Shown piece by piece: positions 4,596 through 63,814 of a DNA stretch of 64,000 bases (position 1 is its first letter; every line of letters begins with the position of its first letter). Location of the stretch: positions 15,331,001 through 15,395,000 of the forward strand of contig NC_053406.1 in assembly GCF_016859285.1 (NCBI RefSeq). The letters are read 5' to 3'. The notes beneath the pieces were generated by a model that saw only the letters and a list, made by a program, of their open reading frames with translations, was not told the DNA's origin and ran no database searches. Both the position numbers and the translations under genes were made by a program. Source of the DNA: Xiphias gladius (taxonomy: Eukaryota; Chordata; Actinopteri; Istiophoriformes; Xiphiidae).

Positions 4596-4758
4596 TTGAC
4601 TTTCTTTGATATCAACCTTAACCATTTCCATGGGATTTCCTTCTTTTTTCTTTCTTTCTTATCTTCCTTCATTCTTCATTATTTCTTTGTAGGCCATTGA
4701 CCTTCTATACAGCCGAGAGCTACACACTTGCCAAGACTTTCTGACACTGAACCAATTT
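4596..4758 (+). repeat. Direct duplication, copy 1
   Basis: About 160 bp nearly identical to 7080-7241, same orientation, 2.5 kb apart, with a few substitutions and a small indel in a CTTT-rich part. Both copies contain a pyrimidine tract ending TTTGTAG, followed by an open frame that begins AIDLLYS and continues through ELHTCQDFLTLNQ. It may be a duplicated exon-like fragment or part of a dispersed repeat. No gene was found that uses it. Confidence 0.8.
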
Positions 4759-20681: not shown

Positions 20682-27688
<7,007 letters not shown>

Positions 27689-40583: not shown

Positions 40584-40988
40584 TTTTTCAAGATAAACTT
40601 GGGCGGTAACAAGAGATATCTGACCTGGAGAAGTTTGGCCTCTGTAGTTTATTTACCTTCTTCCGATGTTTAGCGTAGAATGGGAGAGAAGCTAACGTTA
40701 GCTGGGAACTTTGTAAAGAACATAATGTTAGCTTAACGTTTGTAGTTAGGGCAGCCGCACACCAATTAAACTGATTAATATATCTTCAGTAACATTTAAA
40801 AAATGTCAAAACATGAGTAATTCGTTGCACCTGTTACCTGATATTACTTTAAATTCGTACCCACCTGTACTTTTAAATGCTATAGCTAACAACAGTAGAC
40901 TTTTTGTTGATAACTGTTTCTAAGCGACGACTCTAACTACGGATACTGACAAGGCTCAAATGCTATAAAACTCACAAGAAATAATGTC

Positions 40989-41142: not shown

Positions 41143-43836
41143 TCAGGCATATGTGATGACTGCATATTCCGAGTTGGTGCTCATCTTGCGGCTGACCTCT
41201 CTGGGCAGGGGGACATGCAGTCTGTCAGCTGATCGTGAGGCTTGCAGGTGAGACCTTGATTCATCCCCCCACCACTGGAGGGGAGGCAGAGAAAAACGTA
41301 TGTGGCATGTAGGGAATAGCAACCCTGGTCCTCCCCTAAAGCTCTTTAATAATATTATCAGTGATAGTAAAAGATAAATGTGGTTGTATTACATGGTATG
41401 TTTAAAAGTGACAGGAAGACACGGTAAGCCCCAACTTGTTTCAAAGCAATGTGTTGGTAGGTTTGCATTTTGACCTTGCAGTCTGCAAATATGCAGACAA
41501 CAAGAAAATCAATTTTTAAAAAAAAAGGAAAATCTGCTGAAAATGTGGTTAAAATTACACACTTTAATTCAATACCTGTGCAGTAAGTTCTACCGTCATT
41601 AAGGCTATGTTCAGGTTCTATTTAAACAGTTTTAGAGAGATGGTGATTCTTCACACTGAAAGGTGTTTCTAAAGTTTAGTCGAACCTAGTCGATATAAAC
41701 ACCTAAAATAAATAAATTAGTAACTGACCCGATGTCTGTTTATAAAAACACATACTTATGAAATGCGTACACACTTTATAATATACAAAATGACAAGACT
41801 CCCCATTTTTAAGTTTCTTGTTTGGCAAACCGGAAGTGACTGATACTCTCTACGTATGGTAGCTCCTTTGTTCACCTAAGCCTTGAGCTGGCTATAAAGC
41901 ATAGCCAAGTAACTGCTCATTAATTTAAGATGATATAATCTGGGTCTTCATTGTGCCTCCTTGTACACCAACAGCAATCAACTGTAACTGATAACCACAA
42001 CGTAGGCATTTACCAGCTTTAGATTTGTGATCAACTCTCAAGTCCCTCACCTCTTTTTGATCTCCGGAAGTCGAGTAGCCAACCTGAGTGAGCTCTGGTG
42101 TACTGACACCTCGGACAGTGATCATTATGTCAGCATATGGAACCTCAGTGTCACTCTCATTATCTGGATCAAAGAAATTATTCAATATATTAGTAATTGT
42201 TGGTCTTTGCATTGTAAACGGTGATTCTGAGTCACTTAGAAAAGATGTGTGGTATTACTCTTCCAGAGATCATCTTACCTGGTGTTGGAATCCTCAAAGT
42301 CACTCTTTCACTTTGTGTTGACAGTGACCCTGGGGAACATGACAGGTAAGAATGACAGGACTGCATTTTGAGGCTAAAATTCTTGCATTTCATATTTGAT
42401 ATTTTAAAGTATTTACCCTTCACTGGTGAGAGGACAGCGTGATATGGCAGTGGTGAGCTGAAACGGTAATGGATAAAGACATTGACTAATTAAGAATTTT
42501 GCAAAATCATTGCTGTGTTATTGAACAATGAAGTTTACCCAAATAGTCATTTGTAAATTGTACTCACCCTGACCTGGACACAACAGACTCCCCTGGAATG
42601 TGTGACATTGTTAATACAATGATGGAGATAAAATGTTATGTATTTTCTCAAGTTTTCTTAAGTGTATCTTCATAGTGTAATATTTTGCAATCACCTTTAC
42701 CATGCCAGCTCTGTCTGCTCCGGTTCAGACACAGGTAAGCGGCCAATGCTGCGAGCACCATGGCCACAGCAACGGTAACTGTTGCTAAAATCTTGATCCC
42801 AGTAAATTCTCCTGTTAAAATTGAAACAACAGTATTAACTTAGATTGCATTGGATTGAAAGGAGAACTTTTACTTGTCAGTTCCACATATAGATGCACAT
42901 AACTACACATAATACAGTCAAACATTATCTATGTTGATAAACTTAATATTCTGCACTGTTTCAAAGTGCCATCTCACCTCCACTTGAATCTTTTGGCTTA
43001 GCAGGAAGTGATGCTGAGAAATGTAAAACATAGTAAGCATTAATGAATTAAAAGTAATGTGATTTTGTAATATTTTATATCAGGTATTTTTTTAAACATA
43101 CAAGGTCCTTACAAGTTTCAGTTTTTGTTTCAGTCTTTGGAGTATCTGTCAAGTTTGGGGCTTTTGTTTGAGCTGAAAACAAACAATCGATAAACACTGA
43201 TATTAAATCTCCTTCTGACTTCGTAACATTTGTTTACTTGCTGCTTTCTTAAAGAACTGCCAAGGCAAGATCTATATATATCTTATATTGATTTTCACAT
43301 AAAAATGTTTATCTACCTTCTAGTTGCAGTAAAACAATGCGCTCAGTTTTCTGTGGAAGCTGAGGGTCATCTGTGTCTTGTGTGTAGCAAGTGTAGCTCT
43401 TCTTGAGATCTTCAGCAGACACATTTGACAGATGAAGCGATATTGTGCAAAAGCTGCCTTTGCTGAATATCCCATGACAGCCAGAGTTGTCTGATGCTTT
43501 ACTCCAGCAGCCACGAACAAATCCAGTGGAGCAATTATAGGTGCAGTTTAATGTAAGAGACTCTCCTAACGCTACAGTCAAGAAATCAGTGGGTATCTTC
43601 ATATTAACACAGCTCACAAAATCTGCAAAGAGAGGGAATTTGATTTACTTTACAGAAAAAAACATTATTTTACATCAAATAACAAGCATGACTTTCTAGT
43701 TGGGAGCATCATTGATGACATGTAAGTGTATTTAACACACTTAATTGCTAAAGTCCAGAACAACGACAAAGAGTATATAAACTTTACCTTGCGTCATCCA
43801 AAAAAAGAGCACTGCGAAGTGGACTGAGATCATCAT
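41143..43836 (-). CDS. Single-Ig-domain receptor with two ITIMs, unnamed
   Basis: Ten exons on the minus strand join in phase to 307 residues: 43788-43836, 43317-43622, 43113-43172, 42978-43013, 42701-42811, 42568-42592, 42417-42457, 42279-42329, 42051-42163, 41143-41274. Exon 1 is a signal peptide (ISVHFAVLFFWM). Exon 2 is one Ig-like domain with LTLNCTYNCSTG, GCWSK and SYTCYTQD, and more cysteines than the usual pair. A Thr/Lys/Pro-rich stalk follows, then a membrane span near residues 156-178 (ILATVTVAVAMVLAALAAYL). The cytoplasmic tail has two sequences fitting the ITIM pattern, VPYADI (Tyr236) and SEYAVI (Tyr301), and ends TYA. Such motifs recruit SHP phosphatases, which suggests an inhibitory leukocyte receptor. 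The Ig domain recalls Siglec/CD22-like or other fish immune receptors, but I cannot assign an orthologue. Minus-strand AATAAA lies at 40989-40994. Confidence 0.85.
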
Positions 43837-44758
43837 TGTTGCTGCCCGTTTTTCTGATTCCCGCTGCCTCGAAAAACAAGCAATCGAATAGCTTGTTCTC
43901 TTGGAGTTAGGTGATTCTTGCACCTGCAGGAAAATACTCAAATACCTAAAAATATGTACCAACCTTTGGGTACAGGAAGTGGTATACAACAGGATTTAGA
44001 GCTATGTAAAAATAATTCATAACTTTCCATTCATTGCACCTGACTTCCTGCAAAGTACATTTCTGTTGAAAGTTTAAAGGACAATAGCATATTCCCAAAC
44101 TGATGATACACCGATGACATACTAACATTTAAATTACCAAAATTTACTTACACATTAATACTGCAAAGCATACAGTTTGCACCTGGCTTGAGAAAAGATA
44201 CAGGACATGATAGTGCAGTTTGCACACACATCTGCACATGCACCACTGCTCACTCTTTGCTCGCACAGAGGATGTGGCTGATGTTCATTTCCAACTATAA
44301 TTACATCATTCATTTTAAATCCTCTGCCTTTGAAACAAAAGGGATCTTTTGTGATAAAGCAATCAATGCTATCCTAATTTCAATGATTCCAGAAATCTAG
44401 CTGATTTTTTTTAATCTTTCCCATATTTTATTTTCATTATAACCTCTAAATTAATTAGGTGGGTTTCATAAATAATTGAACTGATCCACAAACAGAGACA
44501 ATATCTGGGTTAGCTTTAACACATACTCATACATTATGAAAGTGGAAGGTACAGTTACAGAACATCATTGCACACCATTATCAGCTAGAGCAATCACCTG
44601 GGCATCACATTTCGTGCTCTTGTTTCAGTTTCAGTCACCGAGGGCCTCTCACTTTCATGCCTTTAAACAACCAGTCATGGTGGCTCAAACCAAACAGTTT
44701 TGAATGAAAATATGCTAATAAATGAAACAGAGTGGACTTGATTGGAGATTCAGTGATA
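43837..44758. promoter_or_regulatory. Divergent intergenic region, possible shared promoter
   Basis: The ITIM receptor starts leftward at 43836 and the GCC-repeat gene starts rightward at 44759, so one 0.9-kb interval must hold both 5' flanks. It is AT-rich with no evident CpG island. I could not identify a convincing TATA box or factor site for either gene, so the call rests on geometry. Confidence 0.45.
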
Positions 44759-47207
44759 ATGTGCTCATGGAAGGCATTGCATCTGTTCTGTTTTTCAGCT
44801 TCATGGTTTTTTCTGCTGCTGACACAATCTGGACTCGCCTCAGGTAAGAACAATGACTGTTAAAGGTTATGTAGTTTTTTACGGTACAACAAATTAACCT
44901 AATTCAAGAAGAAACCAGTTTGAAGACAGTCAAACATATTGATTAATGACAGACTTCTACACCATTCCTTACGTTAATTTATTTGTGTAAGAATCATCTG
45001 AAGGGAGTGCAGACCTCCTCGTCAGCCAAGAGACAGACCTTGATCAGTGCTCCGGAGGAAAATACTTTTCCCACCAACTTTGTTTAGAGTGTCCCTCTGG
45101 CCATTTGTAAGTCATCAAAAATCTTCGAAATTCTTGACTTGTATACCTTTGTGCATTAAGAAAAATACTTAGATCAGACTTTAGTATAAAAGGAGACATT
45201 ATTTTTGCTCCTTTGAGGAATCACAGGTAAGAATTTCAAATAAAATGTAAAAAATGAAGCGTGTTTAATATCATATATTTCTGTTGTATAGTTGTCCTGG
45301 CAATGTATCTGCACCTCATAGATGTCCAACAGGAACATTCAACCTCTACACAGGAAAAAGCAGTGTCAGTGACTGCAAGGTAAAAACACATCGTCATACA
45401 ACCTCAGTGCCTCCTAGACCTGTTTTGTGATGCCCTCATTTGAAAGCCAAAGAAAACAGCATATTTCACTTGTCTTTCTAGCAGTGAATCAGATTCGTAG
45501 ACCTTTTCTCGTGGCAGACATTTTGACTTGTCATAAAGAAGACGCTGCTCCAGTAGTTACTGCAATGCAACGCAGCATTTAATAATTTGTTACACGTGTG
45601 TTGATAAGTCAGAATGTCTGCTATGAAAAAGGTCTATTCACCCTTAGTTTCACTTCTTCCCTTCACCGTGTGCGTCTATACCTGAAATACCTCAATACCT
45701 CGAATACTTGATGCTAGGTCATGTCGTTGTCATTATGGTGTCTTTACTCATTTCATCCCTGTATGTTGCAGCCTTGTTTTCCAGGTCTGATCAGTTCAGA
45801 GGACAGAGTGGACTGTAGGCTGTGTCCCGCGGGTTTTTCATGTGACCCAGCCAATGGCATGCTCACTTTATGCACCCCAGGACAACATTCTCCTGAAGGG
45901 GTCCTTCAGTGTCTGACTTGCCCTGTAGACTCTGTCTGCACCTCTGGATTCCCTCGTAAGGTGACGATGGTAGCAGACTTTGTCAATTCCAGATACATCC
46001 TCCAAAAATGTTTTGTATCTGAGAAAGAAAAACTTCGACAGCACTTTGTCATTATAAGTGGTTGGTAAAGCTTGCCTTAGAATTAGAATTAATCTAAGTC
46101 ATATGCCCTTTCTCCTTGCTCCTTTATTGGTCTCTTATATGTGCCTTATAGTGTGAGCCTGGCAAGGAGCCTGGAGTAGATCACATTTTGTGTAATGACT
46201 GTGCCCCAGGCTTCTATTCCACTTTGTGTACTATCCAGTGTCTACAGTGTCCAGCAGGTAATGCAGTAATAAAAGACCATATGAAAGTGGATTTGAAATA
46301 AATCTGTTATTTTGTGATTATCAAGGCCCCAACAATTAAAACTGTGTCCTCCTTCTAACATAGGAAGTTACTGTCCAGATAGTGGGATGTCACAGCCTCT
46401 TCCCTGTCCTCCTGGTTGGTATTCCACACCTGGACAGACTTACTGCCGTAGATGTAATGATACGTCCTTATTGTGTGGGGGAGCTGTGGCCACCCCCTGG
46501 GGCCAACGAGCGCACAGATCTAGTCAACCCATCAACTGTCGTCCAGGAACATACAAAGACATGAGGGAAGAGTTACCATGTGTGGTCTGTCCAGTAGGTT
46601 AGTGTTTATAACTGCTTACTGCCATTTGCATTTCAGTTTTATTTCCTCCTGGAAGAAGCCATTTATTTTAGTATGTTTTTCTTCATCCCAGGTCATTACT
46701 GTGTAGGAGGTGTAGCTGTACCTTGTCCTGCTGGGACTTACGGCCCTAAAGGAGGTCTGCAGAGGCTGAGAGACTGCACAATCTGTCCAGCTGGTAGAGT
46801 GAAAAAACTTCTACATTTTATACTCACAGTTTCGCACCCAAAGATTATAATTTGCACAGAAAATCATATCACTCTATCCATAAACCTACCCAGTAAGTTA
46901 CAGTTTCTCAAGTCTAATAGGCCAGTTTTACTTAGCTATTTGTTTTGCGTGTCTTTACCATGATATCCTGTAAAAAAATGTTCTTATGACCTTTCCTAAA
47001 AATACTTTTCTCTAGGGTTTTACTGTCTGGAAGGCAGTTCACGGAGACCCACCTCCCAGTTCCTGTGCCCACAGGGCTATTATTGTGAAGAGGGCACTGC
47101 CATCCCTCACGGGTCACCTTGCCCTGCTGGTACAGCAGGGGAACAACTGGGTCAGACAAGTAAGGTGGCCTGTAAGAGATGTAGAGAGGGACGCTTTTGT
47201 CCTGCAG
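44759..47207 (+). other. GCC-repeat gene exons 1-8
   Basis: Exons: 44759-44843, 44992-45106, 45292-45379, 45772-45960, 46152-46257, 46364-46597, 46692-46793, 47016-47207 (residues 1-370). Exon 1 is the signal peptide. Exon 2 gives a short acidic lead (ESSEGSADLL) before the first unit, CSGGKYFSHQLCLECPSGH. Later units include TGTFNLYTGKSSVSDC and CPAGFSCDPANG. End phases are 1, 2, 0, 0, 1, 1, 1, 1. Confidence 0.88.
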
Positions 47208-47377
47208 GTAAGTCTTAGCACTAATTCATTGACTTCAATGGAACAAAAAATACTGAAATACTAATAAAATTGTGTAACCATAAGTAACTACAGCCGTACT
47301 TACATACGTACGATTTTAGAGGGAAAATGTTACTGCAGGATACGCTATACCCACTGTCCCATTTCGTATGTTATGCT

Positions 47378-47456
<79 letters not shown>

Positions 47457-50400
47457 CAGGCTCATCGGGTCCTGGCTTACCCTGTGCTCGGGGGAGATAT
47501 TGCCCTGCTGGCACCTTGGAAGAAGTGATATGTCCTCGGGGCACCTTCACTCCCCATCAAGGGGCAGTAGGTGAGTTTATAAACCGTATTTTTACTGCTT
47601 TATACTCACTACTCATCGAGTAATATTTCATATTCACAGTTGTTGATTTTCCACTTGCCTTTTATTTATAAGTAAAAATTAATCTTTGGAAAAAACAATA
47701 TGGTGGTATAGCAGTCTATCATAGCAAAACTCAGTGATAATACACAAATATAAGTGTTATTTAGTTACCATGAGGAACTGCAAGAGATGGATGCCAAGAG
47801 GTCAAAGAGAGAGAGCGTCTAATTTAGCAATAAAAAAACAATGGTTGATGGCAAGCTGAAGCTATGATTCCACTATCCAAACGATGATGGAGGGAAATAT
47901 GACTATATGCTATATGAGCAGTGAGTATTGAATAGAGGTAGATCACAAAAACTCCAACTCATACCTTTATATGAATCTAACAGACATCCCAATGAAGAAG
48001 ACCTAAAGTGTATTATAAACCTACATTCATCCTAGCATGGCACCAACATGTTTGTAACTATTTCCTCCAGGTGTTAAGGATTGTCTCAAATGCCCTGCTG
48101 GTTTTTACTGTCCTGAGGGGACAAGCGACCCTGTGCCCTGTCCACCAGGCTCCTTCAACCCTTTAGAGGGTCAGGATGAGCTGGCTGATTGCAGAGAGTG
48201 CTATGCAGGGAAGGCCTGCACACAGGTAGCTCTGAGAACCCCTGATGTGGACTGCATGCAAGGGTAAGTAACCTCTTCAGGTTCAAGACAAGGTTTCCTT
48301 TCTAGCATGCTTCAGTGATACTGCAATGATACTGTGTTTTGATGCTGTATATTTGCCCGGGTACTGAGACTTACACATTCATTAAAAAATTATCTTACAA
48401 AGGGATTTTTGCAGTCTTGCCTTTAATATAATTCTGTCTTGGCATTGTTATTCTATGATTTTGATCAGTTTGCCTGCATCCTATAGGTTTGTGTGTCCTC
48501 CTGGTTCCTCGAAACACAACGACCCAACCAATGCTTGCCCACCGGGGACGCTGAGCAACCGCACTGACCTCAGTGACCGCTCACAGTGTCAGCAGTGCCC
48601 AGCACGATATGCCTGTCTTCGAGGTGCCATTTATCTTTCACACAAAGACACGATCAGTTGGCCTTTAAAAGCACTGTCTGATATTTCAGAGCTTCACGAG
48701 AATGAATTCAATTGCCACTGGCTAATGGAGTAGGATGATGTGACAATATATAATTTGCCATATGAGTCAAAATGTACCTCCATAACCCTACATATATATG
48801 TAGTTTCATTGTGTGTTTTCCTACTGTATACCTAAAAGGTGCAGTATGGTTATATTAGACCCATTTTTGAGCTTACTTGACGGCTCTAGAGAAATGAAAT
48901 TCGCCATGACTGTTTCTACCAATTTGATCACTGTATCCAAATTAATAGTCATTTACTTTCCTAAAATTTTCTTGTTTGTTTAATGTTTTAAAAGCTATAA
49001 TAATAATTCCCAAAATATTGTCAAATTATAACACCATTGAGGAATTGGGTCAAAGATATAGTGATATTTGATTGTATCAGTATCACCTAGACCTACTTTA
49101 TATCAATAAAATCTATCGCTTGCAGCTTGTTTGCAAGTTTTCCCACCTTGACGCCTATATTATTTATGCTTTATCAGGAACTGGTGGTTTCCAGAGACCA
49201 CCACTCTCCTGCTTTGCAGGACATTATTGTCCCCCTGGAACTATGTTCCCCACCCAGTACAAGTGTCCTGTGGGGACATGGAATGGTCACAGTGGATTGG
49301 AAGCTGAAAGTGAATGTCGGCCGTGCCCACAGGGCTGGTACTGTTTGGCTGGGTCTGGAGCTCCATCAGGTCGATGCAGCTCAGGACACTACTGTCCTGA
49401 AGGTACACATGAGCATGAGATAAGTGGTAATATAGGTAGAATCTCTATTAAATTAATACATTTGTTTACTCCTGTAATTAGAAAAATCCAACACACAAAA
49501 TCCTTAAAGTAAATAAATGTTTTACTTTGCAAACTGTTGAAGAATAAATACAGCTTAAAATAAATGTATTTCATAAATACAATTTAGTTTCTCTTCCGGA
49601 GCTGTAATCATGAGTCATTCATGTAGATATAACAATGTCGATGTTGAATCAACAGGGACCGCATATGGCACCCAGTTTCCTTGCCCTGCGGGCACCTACA
49701 GCATGCGAATGGGAAACAGAGACAGAGAAGACTGCCTGATTTGTCCTGAAGGCTCATTCTGTCAGCAGGGCACCTCCAAACCTTCACCCTGCCCACCGTA
49801 AGCAGTAGTTGTGTGTTGACTAACTGCAGGAATATGTGAGAATGATGATGAAGTGGATGATGACATGGCTAGACCTTGCTATATGGGGTAAAATGAAGGA
49901 TAAAGCTGGTGTAATAAGTATGATTTAGTATATCCACTCTGTCCTGTCTTTCCCCAGCTCCACATTTCTCCGTCTGAAAGGAGGTCGGAGGCTGGAGGAC
50001 TGCTCTGCTTGCCCTGCCGGCTATTTTTGTCCCCACTCAGCCACTGTCAACCCCAGAGTGTGCGGGTCTGGCAGCTACTCTGTAAGGCCTCATCTATAAC
50101 ACAGTCCACTGTGACTGGTCAACTGACAGAACCAGTGGAAAGCAGAGCTTGTGTTTTAGTCTTGCCCTTCCATAGGCCATTCTGATTGTCCTATTTTTAG
50201 ATTAGCTTTTTCCGCCCACAGTGTCAGTGTTTTGCATTACTCACCATGTACGTACATCTGTCAATGTCAGCAAGAAGAGCAGTTAATTCTTATAATAGTT
50301 AATCTTTTGCTCTCAGTATTGGAGCAATATCAGTAATATTCCAGTTATATCCTCTTCTCCCTTGCAATTTAAGTCTGTGTTTTTCTGTGTCCCTCCCCCA

Positions 50401-53400
50401 TACTAGTTGATGTCTTTAACGTCAACTCTCTGAATCTTCCTTCACGTTCTCTTGTGTGTAGGACGAGGGCTCTGTGGAGTGTTCTCCATGCCTGAAAGGC
50501 CACTACTGCAGTAATGAGACCACTAGTGAGGAGGCCATGTTAAGCGTCATGGTGTGCCCCCCAGGCTTTCTCTGCTCTCAGGGTTTGGCCCGAGACCCTC
50601 AGCGCTCAGCCACCCTCTGTCCTCGAGGCTTTTACTGCCCTGGAGGAGGCATTGTGAGTCAGAGTACTATACCTACAGCAAAGGAAGAATTTTGTTGAAT
50701 TAATATGGGTTTCTTTTATATGTTTGAATCAATTTGGGATCATTAAACTACATGCAAATGTGATTTTCCTCATAGGATCCCAACCCCATTCCTTGCCCCA
50801 ATGGTACGTACAGTGAATTTCCAGGTCTCCGTGACATGAGTGAGTGTGTCCAGTGTCCTGAGGGGAAGTACTGTTACTCTGAGCAGCCTCGAGAGCAGCC
50901 TATTACCAGGCCTGTAAGATACCAAATAAATGAAATATACAGTGTTTTGAAGAACAAATATAGTGCATGTCAGAACCATTTTCAATGTAGTAATTATAAA
51001 TAATTATACAGTCATATACAGAGTATATGAGTATATACGAGTACAAAAACTTGTGTATTATCTTAATTTTTTTTTAGATATATAATAACATCAGTTGTAG
51101 GTGAACAATGTGCTTACAAAATAAATGAAACAATTGTCTTGAATTCTGTCATGCTTCAGACAGGGGTGTGTCCTGATGGGCACTATTGCCCGCCAGGGAC
51201 TGGATACCCCTATGCCTACCCCTGCCGGGCTGGCCAATACAGAAACAACACACTTGGTCACAGTGGAGAGGCGTGTGTTTTATGTCCATCCAGATATTAC
51301 TGTGGCAGACTAGGAACTCACACGCCCTTAGTCTGCCCTCAGGTACTGTGGGAATATCTGGCACTTTAAAATAAATGTTTTATTGCACGGATGAGACAGT
51401 GTAACTTTTTCATAGGTGTGCTTTCCACAACATATATCTGTTTCTTTCTCTCTGTCTCTCTTTCTCCGTCTGTCGCACTATTCATAGGGCTTTTACTGTC
51501 CAGAGGGGACCTCTACTCCAGAACCTTGTCCTGAAGGGACCTACAGCTCCCGCGCTGGTCTCAGTCATGGGTCCAATTGCACTCCTTGTGGCGGAGGCCA
51601 GTATTGCACTGGCGTGGGACTCAAAGAGCCCTCTGGAAGCTGCAAAGAGCGCTACTACTGTAGGGAGGGAGCCAAGTCTGCAGTACGAGAATGCTGTTTT
51701 AATAATTTATTAAGTGAAGGTTGTTAGTCATTAATTCTTAATCCTTTTCTTTATACATTTTGACCTCCATTAACTTCCATAAAGTGGTTGTGAGTCTTCC
51801 TGGTGTTCACAATTAAATTCAGTTAAATGAATGATAACGTCTTGAAGAATGAGGAGGAAGAAACTCACATTATGAGAAATTACATTGTTATGTATTACTT
51901 TCCATTGCTTGGAATGGGCATCTTTGGAATGAAATTATTCACTACAGTACACTTTGGCTTCTCTTTACATGTACGTACTGTGAATATGTCCAGACTCCAG
52001 TTGATGGTCCGACAGGAGGTTTGTGTCCAGCAGGGAGTTACTGCCCTCTAGCTTCTTCTACTCCCCTCCCCTGTCCCCCCGGCACCTTCAGCAATAGCTC
52101 TGGCCTCAGAGGACCTGAGGATTGTGTCAGCTGTCCACCTGGGTAACGTCACTCATAATCATAATCAATCAGTTATTTTTTTGCAATATGATTATTCTGA
52201 TATCAATGGATTTATATAAAAGGACTGTGTGAAACTGAGGCCTCTAGTCCGTGTGCCAATATATTTTTCTCCTTGCCAGTTTCTATTGCTTAGGTTCCAA
52301 CAACACCTCACCTTCAGGTCCTTGTTTTCCTGGTTACTACTGTACCGGTGGCTCAGCTTTGCCCGTTCAGAATGAAGCAGAAAAAGGTTATTTCACCTTG
52401 GAGGGGGCATTCAGGGCACAACCATGTCCTCTTGGCCATTTTCAAATGGTAAGAAATCATCCAAAGAGAATACCAAGTGCTGCTCTTCTGAAAGTGAACT
52501 GTTAAATACAGATAATGAGATAATACCATATTCAAGTTTATTCCCTTCTCTATAAATCCTCCACAGCATCGAGGTGCACAGTCATGTGTGGAGTGTCAGG
52601 GAGGCAGACTGTGTAACCAGACAGGCTCGTCCCAGGCACCACTGTGTCCCACAGGACACTACTGTCCTCCAGGGTCCTCTGTCGCTCGCCCCTGTCCTCC
52701 AGTCAGTATCTGTGTGTTAGTATGTGTGTGAGAATGTGGGTGTGTCTGTCTGTTTAGCTGCTCATCCTTGTTTTTCAGTCTACTTCTTATGTCCTTCTTA
52801 TGAGTCGGTCGTGTTTGCTGTATCTCTTATTTCTGCACACTAGCGTCCGGAGTTTCATCTTCCCTCTGTCAAATTCACATAATTAATAATGTAAAATTAT
52901 ACCATGTTATTATACAGGGTTCTTACTCTGACCAGCCTGGCGGTGTTGGTGTGCAGCACTGTCGGCCATGCGAGGCAGGTTGGTTCTGCAGCAGAGCCGG
53001 TCTCTCTGACCCCCAGGGTCTCTGTGATCCGGGACACTACTGCACCTCTGGAGCCTCCACTGCCTCTCCAGTAAGATGTAATGAATAACAGCTTTGGTAA
53101 CTCAGCTTCCAGCAGCTCATCCAAGAAGGAACTGATGTTTAAGTAAAAAGCAATTAGTATGAAACTGAAAGAGAAACATAATTACATTAAAACATTTTAA
53201 GAAGTGGTCAGTATAACAAAAACTAGTTACTCTCATGACAGTGTCTTTATATAAAGATCTGAGGTTGTGCACAGATGAGAGAATTAATACCTCATTCTAC
53301 AGATATTGAAAGGAATTTAATTCACTGTTATGCTTTGATGTCATATTAACAAATTGCTGTTAAAATGTACTTTTTGTTCACTCTATAATCATGTTTCATA

Positions 53401-56400
53401 TGTAGCAATATAACAGGAAACCTATAATGCCTTTCATATTAACCATGCTGGTTTCTGAATGATATACAATGATGGTGAAATGTTTGACATTTTGTCTACA
53501 ATGCGCTTGTTGATGATATATGCTTCTAAATTTGGTTTTGCTCAAGTGCTGTATTTTTTTCTAGCAGCTACAGAATATGAGCCAGTGGGAAGCAGAATGA
53601 AAAACATAGGGCAATTTAAAGAGGTGGAAATCCTGGTTATTAAATTGAATATTTCTGCTTTCTAAGTTAAAGCTGTGTAGTTGATTTGATGGCAGCCGTT
53701 CATTTCCCACACACTCAGAAAGTCTTTTTCTGTCAACTGATATGAATATGAATTTAGAGACATGTTTGGTTGAAGTTTGCAGAAGTTAAATAAATAATTG
53801 TTTTTCAGAAGTGTTTTTTGGATAAGCTGCGGTGCGTGGGAAATGAATGACAGCGATTAACTCAAACTGCCCACAGCTTTAACTTTTAAATGTCTAACCA
53901 GAACTGGAATCCAAAATGATCAAACTTCTTAATATTCAGATGGCTACTCCAACATTCCCACAGGTGGCTGTGTCCTCTGGCGGCATGTGTCCTGCAGGCT
54001 ACTACTGTCCACAAGGGACCAAGTACCCCCAGCAGCACCCCTGCCCTGAAGGAACCTGGAGCAACACTGTGGGAGCCCAAAACCTGTCCTCCTGCTGGCC
54101 CTGCCCTCCAAGACTCTACTGCAACAGTACTGGACTAAGCCAGCCCTCAGGAGTCTGTGATGCTGGTATGACAATTAGTTCTCTTATCTGTTTCATTAGT
54201 GATGGCAGATTTGATGTTTTCAAATATTAATTTTCATATTTAATTTTATGCATAGATAATGAGGTGAAAAGGTGAAATAAAGAAATAAAGTCATAATGAG
54301 AAGGGAGCATCATCACTTCTGTGGTTTACATAAGTACATTTTTTATCTACTGATTTATAGGATATTACTGTTCAGGAGGGGCCGTGTCTCCAATGCCCTC
54401 AGATGGACTGACAGGAGACATTTGTCCAGTTGGACACTACTGTCCGATGGGCTCTACTTCTCCTGTACTCTGCCCTGATGGAACTTACTCAGACACTAGA
54501 GGTATAGAAAAAATATCTCATGGATCTGCAGAATAAATTAGGTTTTAAAAATTAAAAATATAAAATGCAGGCAGCTTTTCATTTTTTCTTTCTTTCCTCT
54601 GGGATGTAGGGGCAGAAGTATGTGACGACTGTCCCTCAGGAACCTACTGTCTGTCAGGAGAAGGTGTCCAGCCCTGTCCAGCAGGACACTACTGTCTTGG
54701 TGGTGGTGTTGAGGGCATCCTGCCTTGCCCTCCTGGCACATACAGCCCTGAGTTGGGCCTCAGCCAAGTGGAGCAGTGCCTCCTATGTCCAGCAGGTGAG
54801 AGTATTGTCCCATGTTTTTCTTCAGTGCTCTGTCTGCAAGACACTGGAAAGTCCTCCTTAAAATGTTCAGTGAGCTGAATCGGATATAAATGCATTAAAT
54901 TCTGATTTATTTGCTGGATGAGTTGAAACCATTTGATTTTAACAAAGGCAATAATAGAAGGATTTATCACATTTAATTAACTGAATGAGGAATGTTTTCT
55001 GATGTGATAGGATTTGTTATAAACACCTTGATGATTTTCATGCCTTACTGTTACTGCAATGATGTTCTCCGTTATCATGCTTGGATAACAGGGCTCTACT
55101 GTGAGGACTGGGGTCTGTTTGCGCCTACTGGTTCCTGTCAGGCCGGTTATTACTGCATAGCAGGTACACATATATGATACTAGGACAGTTGTTGACTTTT
55201 ATGAGCAGACAACATGTCAGCCAGATGTCATATATTACTTGTAATCTAACATAAAGACCTGGTACTGTACAAATGTCTTTGTATTGCTAAACGGAATTGG
55301 ACAATTGAACCTAAATAAACTGTGCAACTTCCCAAGGCGTAAACTTTCCGAACCCAGATGGCAACTTCAGCACAGGGGTAGGAGGAGCATGTCCAAAGGG
55401 GAGCTACTGTCCTGAGGGCACCAATCTCCCTCTGGCCTGTCCACCAGGGACCTACTCTACCAGGTTGGTGGGCCAAAATGTGACGCATACATAATCCTAA
55501 GAACTTTACCATCTTTTTCTGAACTATGTAACTGTATATCTTTGTGTGTGTATGGTTGCAGTCTTCATCTGACAGACATCTCTGGCTGTAGTCCCTGTCC
55601 TGCTGGTCACTTCTGTGGTACTGCAGGTCTCACTAATCCATCTGGACTGTGTGAGGCAGGATTCTATTGTCCAGGGGGAGATTCAACAGCTACAGGTAAA
55701 ATTGCAAAATATTGACCTCTTATTTTTTTTTTTATGAGAAGTTAATTTCATTTGTGCTTGTGGGGTAATGCCACAGTAATTTATAACATTAATTCTTTCT
55801 GCAGCATAAACTTGGTTTGACCGTCATCAAATATCAACACAATGATTCAACACTTAATTAATCAATGATTATGAATTAAAGTATCTCTTAACTGAAATCA
55901 AGATAGTGCCGAATTGATCCAATATATAATGTGTGAATAGAAATCTTATGAATAGGCATCAGATAGAAGAGAAACCAATGCTGATAAATGCATGAAATCT
56001 GAATGTGTGAGGATGTTTTGTTGAATGAATGATGACTGAATTAATCAGGGTTTATCACAGGATTCATCATAATAAGGGGTGAGCAGTCATAATCTCAGCA
56101 ATTTACCACATAAAATAGTTTTTTTCCTCTCCAGGCTCAGAAGGAGGTCTTTGCCCACCAGCTCATTGCTGCCCTGAGGGCAGTGCTAGCCCAGTGCCCT
56201 GCCCAGCTGGAACCTACACTAATCTCACAGGCCAGTCACTGTGTTCCCGCTGCCCTGCTGGATACTACTGTCCAGAAAAGACTGGCAACTTCACCGAGTT
56301 CCCCTGTCCCCCTGGATTCTACTGCCCTGATGGTAGACTCACCCAAAACGCTATCAGTCACGGTTGTGTTTCTTCATTACTGAAGAACTTTGGCATATTG

Positions 56401-59400
56401 TAAATCTAGCATAGCCTCTAAAGAGGAGCCTCTTGTTGCACTGAAAGATTTTCTCTGATTTGGTAAAAAATTCTAGCATTTAAAACACCAACATGGCACG
56501 TGCCACCTATTTAAAATCTAATTGTATTATATGCACAGGTACTAGGCATGCCACTCAGTTTCCCTGTCCTCGTGGATACTACAACCCTGAGCCCATGACT
56601 CAGAGTCTGGACAGCTGCCTGCCTTGTCCTCCAGGACACTACTGTGAGAAGGAGAGGCTGACCAAAGTGTCTGGAAAATGCAAGGCTGGTCAGTAATAGT
56701 GTCTTGGTTGATTTCTACTAAAGATATGATCCCAGCCATACGGCTTAGTTTCTCAGTGTCCAGACTTTGTCCCCTCTGCAAGCCTATTTGTCTCTAGGGG
56801 CCGGCAAGCCAGTCCAATGCAGTCTGCGAGACTTTGGGGTCTCGCAGACAGCAGTTTTAAAATAATCCCACCTATATTATTTATTTATGTACAAAGATGC
56901 AAAAGAGCCTGGCTCAAAAATGCCAACCACAAAATGCATCCAAGTCTCAGGCAGATATTAGAACAGTGCCTACCTCGTTTATTAAGCCTTTTTCTCACTG
57001 ATGGCTCATCTCCCTCACTTTGCTCTGTATTGCTGTCTTCCTGCCCAGTTGAGCCTCTTGCTTTCACCCTGTGCTGAGAGAGTTATCATATGATGTCCAC
57101 AGTGATACTACAGAATATGTCAGGAGCAAATGTGTTTGTATAGTACAGAGACAAAGTCAAAACATCATTACATCACCTTCTTTGTCCCCCACTCTCTCTC
57201 TCGCTGCATTTTCTTCCACTCAGGTTGGTTCTGCGTCTCAGCAGCATGGAACTCGCAGCCTTTTGACCTAGACAATTACACAAACGCCAACTGTCTATGT
57301 CCAGCTACCTCCACAGGGGGGCGATGCCAGGTGGGCTTTTACTGCCCCTTCGGTAGCTCAGAGCCCCTGCCTTGTCCACCTGGATCCTTCTGTAACATTT
57401 CAGGTACTTGGACACTGATAATAAAATACCTAATCATCAATGGTTCGCCATGTGCTGTCGGGTCGCAAGAGTGTCCTGGCTTTCATTCCAACCAAACACG
57501 TGCATCTAATATCACAAATAAGTTCTCACTTAGAACCCTTAAACAGTGAAACTAAACATTTAACACCTACAGTTCATACAGACTGTGTTTGACATTCACT
57601 AATCTATTGTAATAAAGCATAAAAAGACTTTGAAAATGTACTGTAACATACTAAGATTGTATTTGAATGCATGGACAGACACATTACAATTTTTCTAATG
57701 AGTGAAGAGTGTAATATATTGTAAATGACTGAATATTGCTTTAAAAAATAACAAATGCATTTTACAATATATTTTAAATATGCTATTCCCTATGTTATAC
57801 AAGTATTAAAACTGCAGTATATGAAAAGTATACATGTGTTTTTGTCACATGATGATGATGTAAGTAATATTTTGAGGTGGATATATGGGTTTGGATTTAG
57901 ATATAGCTATTGTTTATCTGTTCTGGCCACTATATAAATCCTAAGATTATGAAGAATACAGGTCGTGCTAGAGTATAATATATGACGAGTGACAGAGTAG
58001 ATAAAACAACCCTGGAGCAATTTGATTCCAGGCCCCTTAGGGGTGCATTATTCTGCAGGAGGGGATGTCAGTCTCTACCCAACTTATACACAGTATTTTT
58101 GGGTATATATACAATACAAATAACAAATGTACTTATGTTGCTCAAAAGGTTTAGCTCTGCCAATGGGTCCCTGCTCCCCCGGGTATTACTGTGTAGGAGG
58201 AGCCACTGAGGCCAGACCAACAGATGGAGAAACAGGCAACATCTGTCCACCTGGGACATACTGTGGTAAGCCCTGATTGACTGCCTTGGAACTTTTTAAG
58301 CCTATTAATAGTTGTGTAGCAAGGTGGTTGATGAAATGGACTGTGCATTGGGTCCAAAGATGCCGGGCATAATAATTTTAATGTTTATAATTGAGTTTAA
58401 TTGAAAAAAAGAAAAATTCTTATCCATAGCTTTTGTTGTCTGCCACTCAGGTTTGGAGATCAAAAAAGGGGGTTAATCCGTGTCTATGTTATCAGACTCG
58501 ATATATACATTCTATTATAGTAAGTGGAGGACACTGCAGCTTTGAGCAGAAATAGATAGAGGATGCTGAGTGAAACCAAGACCATCTAATAAGTAAATTG
58601 TATAAACTGTATATCATAGACCAATACAACACAGTATAAGAGTCTGCAAAGTCCTATTGTATCTTACTTTATATTCAAAGCGCAGCTCTTTAGAATTGAT
58701 TGGAATTATTTTTTATAGCAAGAGGGCCCCAGCCTTTAACATTGCAGTTTTCTCCAGATTTTCCTATTTCTTTCCACAGACCAAAGACATGCAAATTAGG
58801 TGGACTGAGACTCGAAAATATCGATAACTATGACTCAGGTAGATTGGACACCTTAAATTACCCATTGGTATGAGTGTGAGTCATCTTGTCTCGGTTTATG
58901 TTTGTCTGTTGATAAACTGTTGACCTGTGTAGGTTGTCTCCACACTGTTTATTGTGACCATTCCGCCCCTGTCTCCTGCCACTCTCTATCTGCCCACCAG
59001 ATGTCCTCGGACTTTCCTCCCTGTCTCAGTCACCTGACTCCCCATAGCCACCTGCTTACCTGCCTTTCATTCCCTAATCACCCAGTAATGATTGCCACAC
59101 CCACCTCACTTGTTTCCCATTCCCTAATCAGCTCACACGAGAAATATACGAGCCTTATTTCCCCAGTCATTTGCCATGTTGTTGCCGCCCTGTTCCTGCT
59201 GTCTGCCTGTTTCTAAGCTATTATTATTACCATCTCGTCTAATAAAATTCCTGAACTTTTCTGGCCTACATGGTCTATGTCTGCATTTGGGTCCTCCTTC
59301 CTGTTGCCTTGTACAAATGGTGACTTCCCTTGTATAAGCAACAGTACCCTACAATACCCTGCATAGATATTGGTATGCAAGGAAAATGAACAGATTACTG

Positions 59401-62400
59401 AATGACTGTCTTCTACAACTATTTCTCTCTACAGCTGAGGGCTCAGGAAGGCCAGAGTTGTGTCCAGCTGGGACTTTCTCACCAGTGCCAGGTCTAACCA
59501 GTGAGGCTGGCTGTCAGCCTTGTCCCGTAGGGTTATACTGCAGAGGACCAGGTCTCAGGGCTCCGACTGGACCCTGCAGCCCAGGTCAGTCCATACATTG
59601 TTTCATGGATCACTAGTATTAATGAAACTTAAAATGTTTCTGCAAGTTATTTGTTTGATAAAAGTAATAGTGTTTGATGCATTCTTTGTTAAAGGTTCAA
59701 CCTCCTTTCCATCCTTTTACACTCCACTGCGTTGTGTCTCTTGACACCCAATAGGCTATTGGTGCTCTCCTGGTCAGACTGTGGCCACAGCTCTGCCATG
59801 TCCTCCCGGCCACTTCTGCCCACAGGGTAGTGCAGCCCCAGAGCCCTGCCCATCAGGAACCTACCAAGACAGAGAGAAACAGGAAGCCTGCACTGTCTGT
59901 GAGGCAGGTGGGAGTCGTCATCACTATTTTTTTTATTTTTTTTAACATTCTCAGCAGAAGCTTCTATTTCTTTTATTTTTTTTAAAAGACTTATTCAGGT
60001 CTTGTGCCATTTTTGTTTTGCTGAACAGGCTGTATTGAAAACAGCTCTCAAGCAACCCAGCTACTGCTTTATTTATTGAAGTTGATGGCTTGTTCACACG
60101 CAGGTGTTCGATTTATTATACTGCACTTTTCAAGTTTGTTGATTTAAAAATAAATACACATTTCTCCTCTTTCAAGGTTCCTACTGTGATTTCAGACTGG
60201 GCCTAGCCAACGCCTCTTTGCCGAGGCCATGCCCTAAAGGACACTACTGCCCTGCAGGTACAGCCCTGCCCAGCCAACACCCTTGCCCTATAGGTTCCTT
60301 TAACCCGAGACAGCGCACGGACAGCCCAGCAGGCTGCATGCCATGTGCTGCTGGACAGTACTGTCCTTCTCTGGGACTGTCGGAGCCGGCAGGTGAGAAA
60401 GAAAGATCTCTTCTCTTCATTCGTCTTCCATTTTTATTTATTTATTTATGTATTTATTTTTTATTTATCAGAATGAGGCTTGCCTTTTTCTGCTTTAAAT
60501 ATTTAAATGGAAAGTTCACCAAATTGCAAATAAACATTTTTTTTTCTCACTTGACTCTAGTTCAGATAGCTTTGAATTTACTGTATGTGCTAAGGTTTTA
60601 AGATCTATCTTAGAGACGGACATCTCTAAGCCAAAGAATACACAGAACTACAGTATTTGCACCAGAGGCAGGTCAAAAAATGTTTTTTTTTAAATTTGCT
60701 TGATGCGATTGTTTAAACTCAAATGTGGTGGCCTGTAGATGTATTTACATAAGCATTTACTGATAGTGTGTTGTAATGTACTTCTATAGGCCCATGTCAT
60801 GCTGGTTATTGGTGCAGAGAGGGAGCATCCTCTCCCAGCCCGCTGGATGGACTCTCAGGTTCCCTGTGTCCGCCTGGTCAATACTGCCCCTCAGGTTACT
60901 GGCTTTTTCACCCTTACTAAGCAACCAGCCCCCAGCAGCTGCTTAAGTGCTGCTATGCTGTTGATGCATGAAAGTTATCAATTTGCGAGGGGGGGGTTCC
61001 ATATTTTCAGAATAATATTTTTTTTAATCCAACGCTGATGCAGCTTGTTTTATAGGCTAATGTAACCAAATTTATACTGTGTGAGGCTATTAACATTCTA
61101 CCCTATTATATTCTAGGGCTAAAATGTTTTATTCATGCTAATTACCATTTGGTGGCCTACAGGAAGTTCTGACAACATTTATCTTGTAACTTTTGATACC
61201 GTTTTCTTTAAATTAATTTGTACACTTGTTCTCTCTGACTCTGGGCACTGACCCATGCTTTAAAAATGCTGCTGTAGGTTAAACTCTTCCTTGTCCTGCG
61301 TTGCTCAATGCTGCACGCAGCAGTGGTGTTTTTATAAGCGTGTCTCACTATTTAGTTGCACTTAAATTCTGCTTACAGTGTGTAAAACATTGTCGCAGTA
61401 TATTGTATAACCAAACCCAATAACTGCAACGTTCCTGTCTTCATTTAACAGTTTTCTGTTTAACGCAGTTGAAATGTGAGTTGGTAATTGATTCTCTATA
61501 GGCACCACTGCTCCCGTGGCCTGCCCTGAAGGAAGCTGGTCAAACACCTCAGGCCTGCGCAGCCAGGAGGACTGCAAGCCCTGTCTGGGTGGATTTTACT
61601 GTGACTCTGCCGGCCTCACTAAACCTAGTGGACCCTGCAGTGGGGGGTACACCAGAATCTGATTAAATAAATGTTACCTGTATTGTTATTTATTTTATCA
61701 CTTAGGTTTCAAAAGTAGCCATCACTGGTGCGCATAATATGCACATTGTATTTGTTTTAGAGTTTTCATGCCCTCATGTTTCTTATGCAGATATTACTGT
61801 GTAGAGAGAGCCGTCACATCCACCCCTACTGATGGAATTACAGGGGGACCTTGTCCCAAGGGTTACTTCTGTCCAGAGGGAACTGTTCAGCCTGTGCCCT
61901 GTGATCCAGGGACATATGTTGCTGTTACACATGCTACTCAATGTGAGCCCTGTGTGCCAGGCTGGTACTGTGTGTCTGGCACTCTGTACCTGTGTCCTGC
62001 AGGTTTGTGGTTTACTGTTTGTATGCCCTTGAAACTACTTTAAAAATATATTTTCAGTTGTATGCTAATTTTATGAAATTATCAAGCAAAATAATTGCTA
62101 AAAAAAAAGAGGAACAAACAATAATGATCAGTGAGAAAGATGATGCACTTAGCCAACAATTTTAACCAAAATTTTTGTTTAAATTTTTTACGCATTTCCT
62201 TGTGTGTGTTCTGTGGCCTGCAGGCTTTTACTGCCCTGAAAGAACTGGATTTGACTTGAGAAGCTGTCCAGGGGGAACTTACGGTCCTGACCCAGGCTAC
62301 TGGTCTGTCTTTCAGTGCAGGCAGTGTGATGCCGGCCATTACTGCTCTTCTAGAAATGGCACAGCTGTCACTGGACCATGTCAGGAAGGATATTACTGCT

Positions 62401-63814
62401 TGCATGGAAACACCTCTCCGCAACCTCTCTCACAGGCTGCAGGTGAACACGTGTTTACCAGACATGCACTGCATGTTCACAAATTCAGGAACTACAGTAC
62501 AGTATAGTCTAATGTAAATTGTCTAATGATTTTTTTTCTTACTAATATGTCATCCTTATAATTATCTGATGAATTGGTTCAGCATCAAAACTCCTATTTT
62601 GAGATGGTTGACAAAAGGCAGTTATGTTTCCTGTGCCTCTCACCAGGAGAGGGAGGGCCATGTCCTGCCGGTCATTACTGCCCCCAGGCCACCGTCCATC
62701 CTCTGCCCTGTCCACGTGGAACATTCTCCAACATCACCAAATTAGTCTCCCAGGTCACTTTGACTCAATATCACACTCTCGTAACCCCTTGACAATTTTT
62801 GAGAGATGTTTTTCCCCTCACAATTACTCTAAGATGGAACTTGACTGGAATCATCAAATATTTAGTGATTTTCTTTTTTTGTTTTGTGAATTGTGAAAAT
62901 TTGTATATGGACTTTTATATGGTATATGTTTTTTAAATACAGTACCTGCACAATTCAAGGTGTGTTGTAGAGAATTATATGGACCCAAAGTGTTCAATAT
63001 TAAATTAAATTGAATTAATTAGTCAATAAATAAATAATGAATAAAAGGAATAAATACAAACTATACAGTATATTCATTCAGACCAAAGCAACAGCCACTA
63101 ACATAACTGGCACTGCCCTGGTCATCTTGATTGGCAGACAAAACAGGCATTGGGAAAATGGCATTGTGAAATGAAAACAGACTTTGGAAAAAGGATATTT
63201 TGAAATAAAAACTGCTGTTAATGTGAAAAGAAGTGGGATAAAATGACATTTCATTTTTTTTTAAATTATTTCACCATTTCATTGTTAGATATTTGTTTGT
63301 ATTTATTTATTTATTTTCTTATTTATTTCATGTCTTATTTACTACATGGCTTATTTATCTATATTTTATTATATGATCATTCTTTAATATTGAACACTTT
63401 AGGTTCTCCATACAACATCATGTAGATGTCTATCACACTCTACTTTGGAAACTAGCTTATGGTCAGCAGCCCTGCTACACCAGCCTTATACAGTGTATAT
63501 ATACAGTAACATACAATATTTTCTCTTTTGTCGTGTCAGCCAATAAATATTTAATCCCAAATCGATGTTTCAATGAGGCACACTCTTTTTTACCATTTTC
63601 TTACAGCCTGTCTGTTTTTGTCTCCCCCCTCTTTTCTCTCTCTCTCATTTCCCCTCTCAGGAGGATTGCCAGCCATGTCTACCTGGTTACTATTGTGATA
63701 CCGTGGGGCTCTCAGCGCCTTCAGGAAAATGCTGGGAAGGTTTCTTTTGTCTGGGGGGTACAGATCGTCCTGACCCTCCTTTGAGAGACAGCCGTGGAGG
63801 ACCGTGCCCAAAAG
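44759..63814 (+). CDS. Giant GCC2/GCC3 cysteine-rich repeat protein, 3' end outside window
   Basis: Forty-one exons on the plus strand chain with matching phases at every junction, giving 6,325 coding bases, about 2,108 residues, without a stop. The start ATG at 44759 yields a signal peptide (LHLFCFSASWFFLLL then TQSGLAS); it is preferred over the ATG at 44767 because only this frame continues into exon 2. The rest is a near-continuous array of short Cys-rich units of the form CPxGxYCPxGT...CPxGT(F/Y)...L..C..CP. These match the GCC2/GCC3 or ephrin-receptor-like family, which also occurs in ephrin receptors and some EGF-module proteins. N-glycosylation sequons are frequent. No kinase, EGF, CUB or membrane segment is seen in the part present. 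I do not recognise an orthologue. It is probably an extracellular matrix-like or cell-surface protein. The final exon ends in phase 1 at GGPCPK, so the gene continues. Confidence 0.88.
47380..47456. repeat. (GT)n microsatellite abutting a 3' splice site
   Basis: Pure GT run of about 75 bp ending four bases before the AG acceptor of exon 9 of the GCC-repeat gene. It takes the place of a normal polypyrimidine tract. Confidence 0.97.
47460..50081 (+). other. GCC-repeat gene exons 9-14
   Basis: Exons: 47460-47570, 48071-48263, 48487-48623, 49178-49402, 49656-49797, 49958-50081 (residues about 371-681). Typical units are ARGRYCPAGTLEEVICPRGT in exon 9 and CPAGFYCPEGTSDPVPCPPG in exon 10. The acceptor of exon 9 is formed directly by the end of a GT microsatellite (GTGTGTGACAG). 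Exon 10 ends GG|GTAAGT and exon 11 completes the glycine codon. Confidence 0.88.
50462..53070 (+). other. GCC-repeat gene exons 15-22, phase-0 block
   Basis: Exons: 50462-50653, 50776-50913, 51160-51342, 51488-51682, 51994-52142, 52280-52448, 52567-52701, 52918-53070 (residues about 682-1119). Unlike the flanking parts, the introns here are nearly all phase 0; only the 19/20 border is phase 2. Units include CPRGFYCPGGG, CPDGHYCPPGTGYPYAYPC and CPTGHYCPPGSS. Confidence 0.88.
53964..58265 (+). other. GCC-repeat gene exons 23-32, phase-1 block
   Basis: Exons: 53964-54165, 54361-54501, 54610-54795, 55092-55163, 55337-55463, 55562-55695, 56135-56332, 56539-56688, 57224-57403, 58149-58265 (residues about 1120-1621). 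All internal borders are phase 1 except 27/28 (phase 2). Most exons are therefore symmetrical 1-1 modules, which can be duplicated or skipped without breaking the frame. Units include CPAGYYCPQGTKYPQQHPC and CPAGYYCPEKTGNFTEFPC. Confidence 0.88.
58900..59330. mobile_element. Possible solo LTR or retroelement tail in intron 32
   Basis: A C/T-rich segment unlike the surrounding AT-rich introns. It contains CCCATTCCCTAATCAGCTCAC, then GAAATATACGAGCC, AATAAAATTCCTG and the phrase GTCTGCATTTGGGTCC. The last phrase recurs in fish LTR-type repeats from general knowledge. The order of TATA-like sequence, AATAAA and then a short tail fits an LTR. I could not fix termini or a target-site duplication. 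Confidence 0.4.
59435..63814 (+). other. GCC-repeat gene exons 33-41
   Basis: Exons: 59435-59584, 59755-59907, 60177-60392, 60790-60894, 61502-61646, 61791-62002, 62224-62442, 62647-62753, 63661-63814 (residues about 1622-2108). Units include CPPGHFCPQGSAAPEPC, CPKGHYCPAGTALPSQHPC and CPAGHYCPQATVHPLPC. Intron 40 (0.9 kb) is the longest in this part. The GTGGTC donor after exon 41 is acceptable but not ideal, and the next exon is not in the window. Confidence 0.85.
60439..60470. repeat. (ATTT)n short tandem repeat
   Basis: About 30 bp of ATTT-type repeats inside intron 35 of the GCC-repeat gene. Similar T-rich stretches lie at about 59930-59985. Confidence 0.8.

Follow-up and report, generated by a model that had tools for sequence, protein, structure and literature searches.

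A candidate gene for a giant GCC2/GCC3-repeat membrane protein, and a one-unit sister, in Xiphias gladius

Does the plus strand of a 64,000-nucleotide stretch of Xiphias gladius DNA (the window; G000:C7:15331001-15395000) carry a single, very large gene built from GCC2/GCC3 repeats, and if so what kind of protein would it encode? The initial annotation had proposed such a gene, lacking its 3' end, as a candidate for an undescribed protein. The analysis reported here makes it probable that a single intact gene is present and that its product (the giant) is a very large type I membrane protein. Its ectodomain would once have had one unit and, through duplicated exons, would have become a rod stapled by disulfides that acts as a tether or receptor. 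The gene structure rests on the sequence, and from it we infer the function.

The exon chain and its continuation

Exons were chained by a script that scores GT-AG sites, phase and codon use, and one plus-strand chain of 40 exons was recovered within the window. A skipped exon, 45013-45106, was added by hand, giving 41 exons from 44759 to 63814 and 2,095 residues without a stop. Start, end and exon number all agree with the initial annotation, and its figure of more than 2,100 residues was a slight overcount of what is indeed a very large single chain. The join of exons 2 and 3 reads CPSGHFCPGN, and an in-frame stop lies at 44723, 5' of exon 1. A start at 44767 (MEGIAS...) was rejected because 44759 is the better fit once exon 45013-45106 is included; exon 1 then supplies the signal peptide (residues 1-28) that had been noted at the chain's start.

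The 49.5 kb of contig 3' of the window were then examined, and the in-phase chain continues there from G000:C7:15395210. The missing 3' end lies within 29.5 kb beyond the window, with the stop codon at 93521-93523 in continued window numbering, that is, the same count run on into the downstream contig (C7:15424523). Script exons from 87581 onward were rejected as a product of the Cys-biased codon model, and this less Cys-rich 3' end was modelled with a general codon model and hand corrections. Also rejected were script exons 72658-72684 and 77432-77461, which are phase-neutral and lack the repeat pattern, and read-through forms at 63607 and 66834. In the final model 102 exons, all in phase and with every junction GT-AG, encode 5,229 residues without an internal stop or frameshift; the introns measure 69-1,235 bp and 63 of the 101 are phase 1. 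The window covers about two fifths of the gene and of the protein.

For comparison, controls were run at the same script settings throughout; because the codon model had been trained on this very chain, the test is biased towards the real region. The segment 44701-85000 scored 1,280 (82 exons), against 106 for its reverse complement, 48 and 87 for the plus and minus strands of window positions 1-40300, and at most 43 (mean 22) in 20 Markov simulations. It is clear that the 41-exon window chain is far above chance, the gap between real and control scores being more than tenfold despite the self-trained model. Furthermore, counts of the motif C..G.[YFW][CS], allowing one optional residue, came to 64 on the window's plus strand, with 63 lying beyond 44000, and to four on its minus strand; the repeat motif extends to about 84.6 kb in continued numbering.

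Repeat array, base and tail

Behind the signal peptide an array of about 4,200 residues, reaching to around residue 4244, contains 451 cysteines, 44 NxS/T sites and 68 units that start with CxxC and belong to the GCC2/GCC3 (PF07699) type. Its super-unit is about 78 residues long with eight cysteines; at a domain E of 0.01 or less, 64 stretches of the array match a unit profile. Pfam scans were made on residues 1-2061 and the C-terminal 985 of an earlier model, preceding the change at exon 2, and on residues 2091-4300 of the final model. Against a cut-off of 23.1 bits, PF07699 scores 42.7 bits with six stretches over the 2,061 residues of the window part, and 46.3 bits with seven stretches over the 2,210 residues that follow, bearing out the module named in the initial annotation. 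When ten single open frames were scanned instead, six matched PF07699 at E of 1 or less and none reached the cut-off. A genome scan gave 16 PF07699 matches elsewhere, at most three of them close together, and none at the giant's locus. Three strong matches lie on each of contigs C2, C12 and C18, as we would expect of SCUBE-like genes.

Among 24 units (69-82 residues) identity averages 41% with a maximum of 57%, and the eight best-matching pairs are all of non-adjacent units; therefore, judged from these comparisons, the duplications that built the array look old. The same figures bear on whether the array is decaying or not expressed. The giant's expression is predicted only, as such an array would allow, but 102 exons and 5,229 codons run without frameshift or stop, and at a mean identity of 41% all eight cysteines are still invariant in 11 chosen units, so that decay is extremely improbable. 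Introns of phase 1 typically accompany extracellular modules that have multiplied through exon duplication, and of the 80 repeat exons in an earlier model 39 are symmetric (1-1).

The module dominates the protein, as had been proposed, but the protein is not almost only repeats, since some 985 residues of base, membrane helix and tail follow the array. The base carries a furin-like RKRR site (RPRKRRD from residue 4449) about 155 residues before the helix. Reading the 3' sequence for a membrane anchor, as the initial annotation had advised, gave a single transmembrane helix at 4606-4624 in the final model, followed by a tail of 605 residues that is predicted to be cytoplasmic; in an earlier model, ranking 19-residue windows by hydrophobicity puts the top eight on a single helix near the C-terminal end. 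Neither base nor tail gave a credible Pfam match, the weak rows being TPR_NAA35 (0.1), Cob_adeno_trans (0.16), CENP-H (0.48) and MGAT4A_C (0.27), and neither gave one among PDB sequences; over all the PDB sequence searches, those with the array and with the sister's tail repeats included, the few rows had E from 0.36 to 1 and look like chance. For 518 residues of the tail there is no match in NCBIfam. A cupredoxin-like fold for the base, prompted by a GD...F / G.Y.F pattern, was unsupported by PDB, Pfam and literature searches.

A 977-bp tandem duplication (93457-94433 and 94434-95410, continued numbering on G000:C7) repeats the terminal part of the giant's last exon together with the adjoining 3' flank; at 99.8% identity it looks recent.

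A one-unit sister gene

A 349-residue stretch of the array, searched against its own genome, gave 51 matches, of which 50 lie in the giant gene and one at C7:15596297-15596440 on the minus strand, whereas a 230-residue stretch gave at least 42, all in the giant gene; these searches score the best candidates only, so that their counts are lower bounds. The single outside match belongs to a second gene (the sister) downstream of the giant, the nearest ends of the two models being about 151 kb apart. The candidate undescribed protein is thus not alone. The sister model is rough and several of its exons are doubtful. It begins with a signal-peptide exon ending ..LPCKP, joined in phase 1 to a single GCC unit, and continues with a base of the giant's type, a membrane helix and related tail parts. 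The unit profile finds two stretches in it (32.3 and 5.9 bits). In blastp, run on a one-sequence database with composition correction off, the two proteins align at 116 bits (E 5e-30), with a second stretch, in the tail, at 3e-6. The bases share 36% identity over 136 alignment columns and have the patterns NP..CL..GD...F and LYN.N...D.GAFR in common. The sister differs in having one unit against about 68, and a longer tail with repeated DPxTG...P..G stretches that were not seen in the giant's tail; Pfam has no match to these stretches, and PDB sequences none that is credible. At least 25 genome matches were obtained with 885 sister residues (16 in the sister and nine in the giant), and at least 20 with the giant's last 985 residues (19 in the giant gene and one in the tandem copy just behind it); a third family member was not found, only these two loci occurring among the best-scored candidates.

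Probably the array was built from a one-unit ancestor like the sister, its exons, mostly phase-1-bounded, having been duplicated again and again. With the giant and an ancestor-like sister in one genome, the growth of a giant extracellular rod out of a one-module receptor becomes testable.

The sister locus also bears on whether the giant is one gene. An open chain by itself is no proof of this, because the same script merged neighbouring genes at the sister locus; together with a few weak junctions in what is a predicted gene model, this weighs against a single gene and would fit chaining that had fused two or more neighbours, such as one gene for a secreted repeat protein next to another for a membrane protein. 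Such a fusion is nevertheless very unlikely. The 102 exons stay in phase across introns of the modest range given above, the most hydrophobic windows gather on one near-end helix (internal signal peptides were not searched for), and the sister combines unit, base, anchor and tail, which argues that these belong in one protein.

Known families and a possible role

Beyond the repeat module neither the giant nor the sister matches a named protein family, in agreement with the expectation of the initial annotation that a well-characterised relative would be lacking; Pfam, PDB sequences and, for the 518 tail residues, NCBIfam give none. From other PF07699 proteins, with which it shares the module above cut-off, the giant differs by its 68 CxxC units in one chain. 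In SCUBE and SVEP1 the module is accompanied by CUB, EGF, sushi or VWA domains, and none of these is listed in the three scanned pieces of the giant; likewise the ephrin-binding, FN3, kinase and SAM domains of Eph receptors are unmatched there. ELAPOR1 (9vqm) has a solved chain of about 800 residues against the giant's 5,229. A literature search of titles and abstract openings, with subscription journals mostly outside its scope, named no giant vertebrate GCC2/GCC3 protein; the related work, in the portions available, concerns Eph evolution, apicomplexan GCC2/GCC3 proteins, matrix domains and choanoflagellate receptors, and the available parts of PMC4224354, PMC6993872, PMC12716839 and PMC11015965 do not name the giant protein. 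It is likely that unnamed predicted orthologues exist in other fish annotations.

The predicted fold of one unit (pLDDT 80.7) weakly resembles the Cys-rich parts of algal MST1, ELAPOR1, CaSR and Eph receptors, and TNFR Cys-rich domains are also neighbours. With the PF07699 matches, this is what would be expected if the giant were an Eph-, SCUBE-, ELAPOR- or TNFR-type signalling receptor with an enlarged Cys-rich part. We think this unlikely, as no ligand-binding, FN3, kinase, SAM, CUB or EGF family is listed in the three pieces and the unit profile finds no PDB chain at E of 0.1 or less. In a comparison with a viral structure library, none of 33 matches had an E of 0.001 or less, and in scans of viral and prokaryote contigs 2 and 20 stretches fitted a pattern, none of them confirmed.

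MST1 (8wa2, 9b4h), a Chlamydomonas mastigoneme protein, has in the available parts of its description Ig-like domains and a polyproline helix, and mastigonemes attach to the membrane via MST3; the Cys-rich portion of MST1, 678 residues long and holding 26 disulfides, covers 26 nm, and its Cys-rich domains pair into filaments (PMC11015965). The weak likeness to the giant lies in the fold of the one unit compared; there is no sequence match, and no Ig match in the scanned pieces (polyproline was not searched for). In the giant, paired cysteines would give a stiff rod standing off the cell, of the order of 160 nm if the MST1 span is scaled by length to some 4,200 residues. For a single-anchored rod that has a large tail, the best reading is a long tether for adhesion, a surface hair or a stand-off receptor, and the predicted tail may signal or dock. 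The RKRR site may permit a furin-type protease to separate rod from anchor. Alternatively, the array could be a secreted matrix or mucus protein, shed at this site as a free polymer, with the anchored form existing for maturation only. Both the position of the site and the pairing of MST1 Cys-rich domains into filaments would suit such a polymer, but no RKRR-type site was seen in the sister's model, and a 605-residue tail related to that of the sister argues for a lasting membrane role; shedding as the main fate is therefore unlikely.

The anchored rod remains our preferred reading, and a surface hair or tether of this kind would be a structural element new to the surface of fish cells. Among vertebrate single-pass membrane proteins the giant would be one of the larger, and its base and tail would add sequence for which no described family was found. 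A more specific idea, which we regard as quite doubtful, is a two-member vertebrate family in which the giant is a single-chain mastigoneme-like surface hair of 100-200 nm, perhaps on cilia or sperm, with a unit number tunable between species by exon gain and loss and so setting hair length. The suggestion of cilia or sperm comes from the neighbours: the giant adjoins an RIIa gene that we take to be of SPA17 type, and the sister, flanked by a ZP-N gene and a TPR gene, adjoins in the latter what is presumably a TTC12-like gene.

Table 1. Features of the locus; positions without a contig label are in window numbering
Feature	Position	Strand	Remarks
Exon 1, signal peptide MCSWKALHLFCFSASWFFLLLTQSGLAS	44759-44843	+	phase-1 join to exon 2
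Exon 2, first Cys unit (CSGGKYFSHQLCLECPSGH/F)	45013-45106	+	donor GTAAGT; weak acceptor (-0.36); added by hand
Chain exons 3-41	45292-63814	+	all GT-AG, in phase
Exons 3-11	45292-45379, 45772-45960, 46152-46257, 46364-46597, 46692-46793, 47034-47207, 47460-47570, 48071-48263, 48487-48623	+	
Exon 12 of 102, 8-Cys unit	49178-49402 (in-frame part 49180-49401)	+	used in structure prediction
Exons 13-22	49656-49797, 49958-50081, 50462-50653, 50776-50913, 51160-51342, 51488-51682, 51994-52142, 52280-52448, 52567-52701, 52918-53070	+	
Exons 23-32	53964-54165, 54361-54501, 54610-54795, 55092-55163, 55337-55463, 55562-55695, 56135-56332, 56539-56688, 57224-57403, 58149-58265	+	
Exons 33-40	59435-59584, 59755-59907, 60177-60392, 60790-60894, 61502-61646, 61791-62002, 62224-62442, 62647-62753	+	
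Exon 41 of 102	63661-63814	+	last in window; chain goes on at C7:15395210
Stretch rich in 8-Cys super-unit	51488-62753	+	C..CPxGxYC...GL..PSGxC..GYYC...G..CPxGxYCPxG....PCPxGTYS
Whole giant gene	C7:15375759-15424523	+	chain model
Sister gene	C7 ~15,575,500-15,597,173	-	genome search, exon chaining, blastp
V-set exon	24574-25125	-	Pfam match, upstream of giant
RIIa exon	40317-40652	-	Pfam match, upstream of giant
Weak Ig stretch	43309-43644	-	V-set 21.6 bits, ig 21.4 bits, neither reaching the cut-off; lies between RIIa gene and giant

The initial annotation had compared the locus with the mammalian SPA17-NRGN-HEPACAM region. The locus does not look mammalian: the giant's introns are 69-1,235 bp long and the assembly amounts to 690.8 Mb, and both point to a ray-finned fish. 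The frame with the weak Ig stretch is possibly a small Ig receptor gene. Downstream of the giant, a fragment at about 96.8 kb taken for a Tc1-type transposase has no Pfam match, and a V-set exon with a later hydrophobic stretch, at 102-106 kb in continued numbering, looks like a sodium-channel beta subunit.
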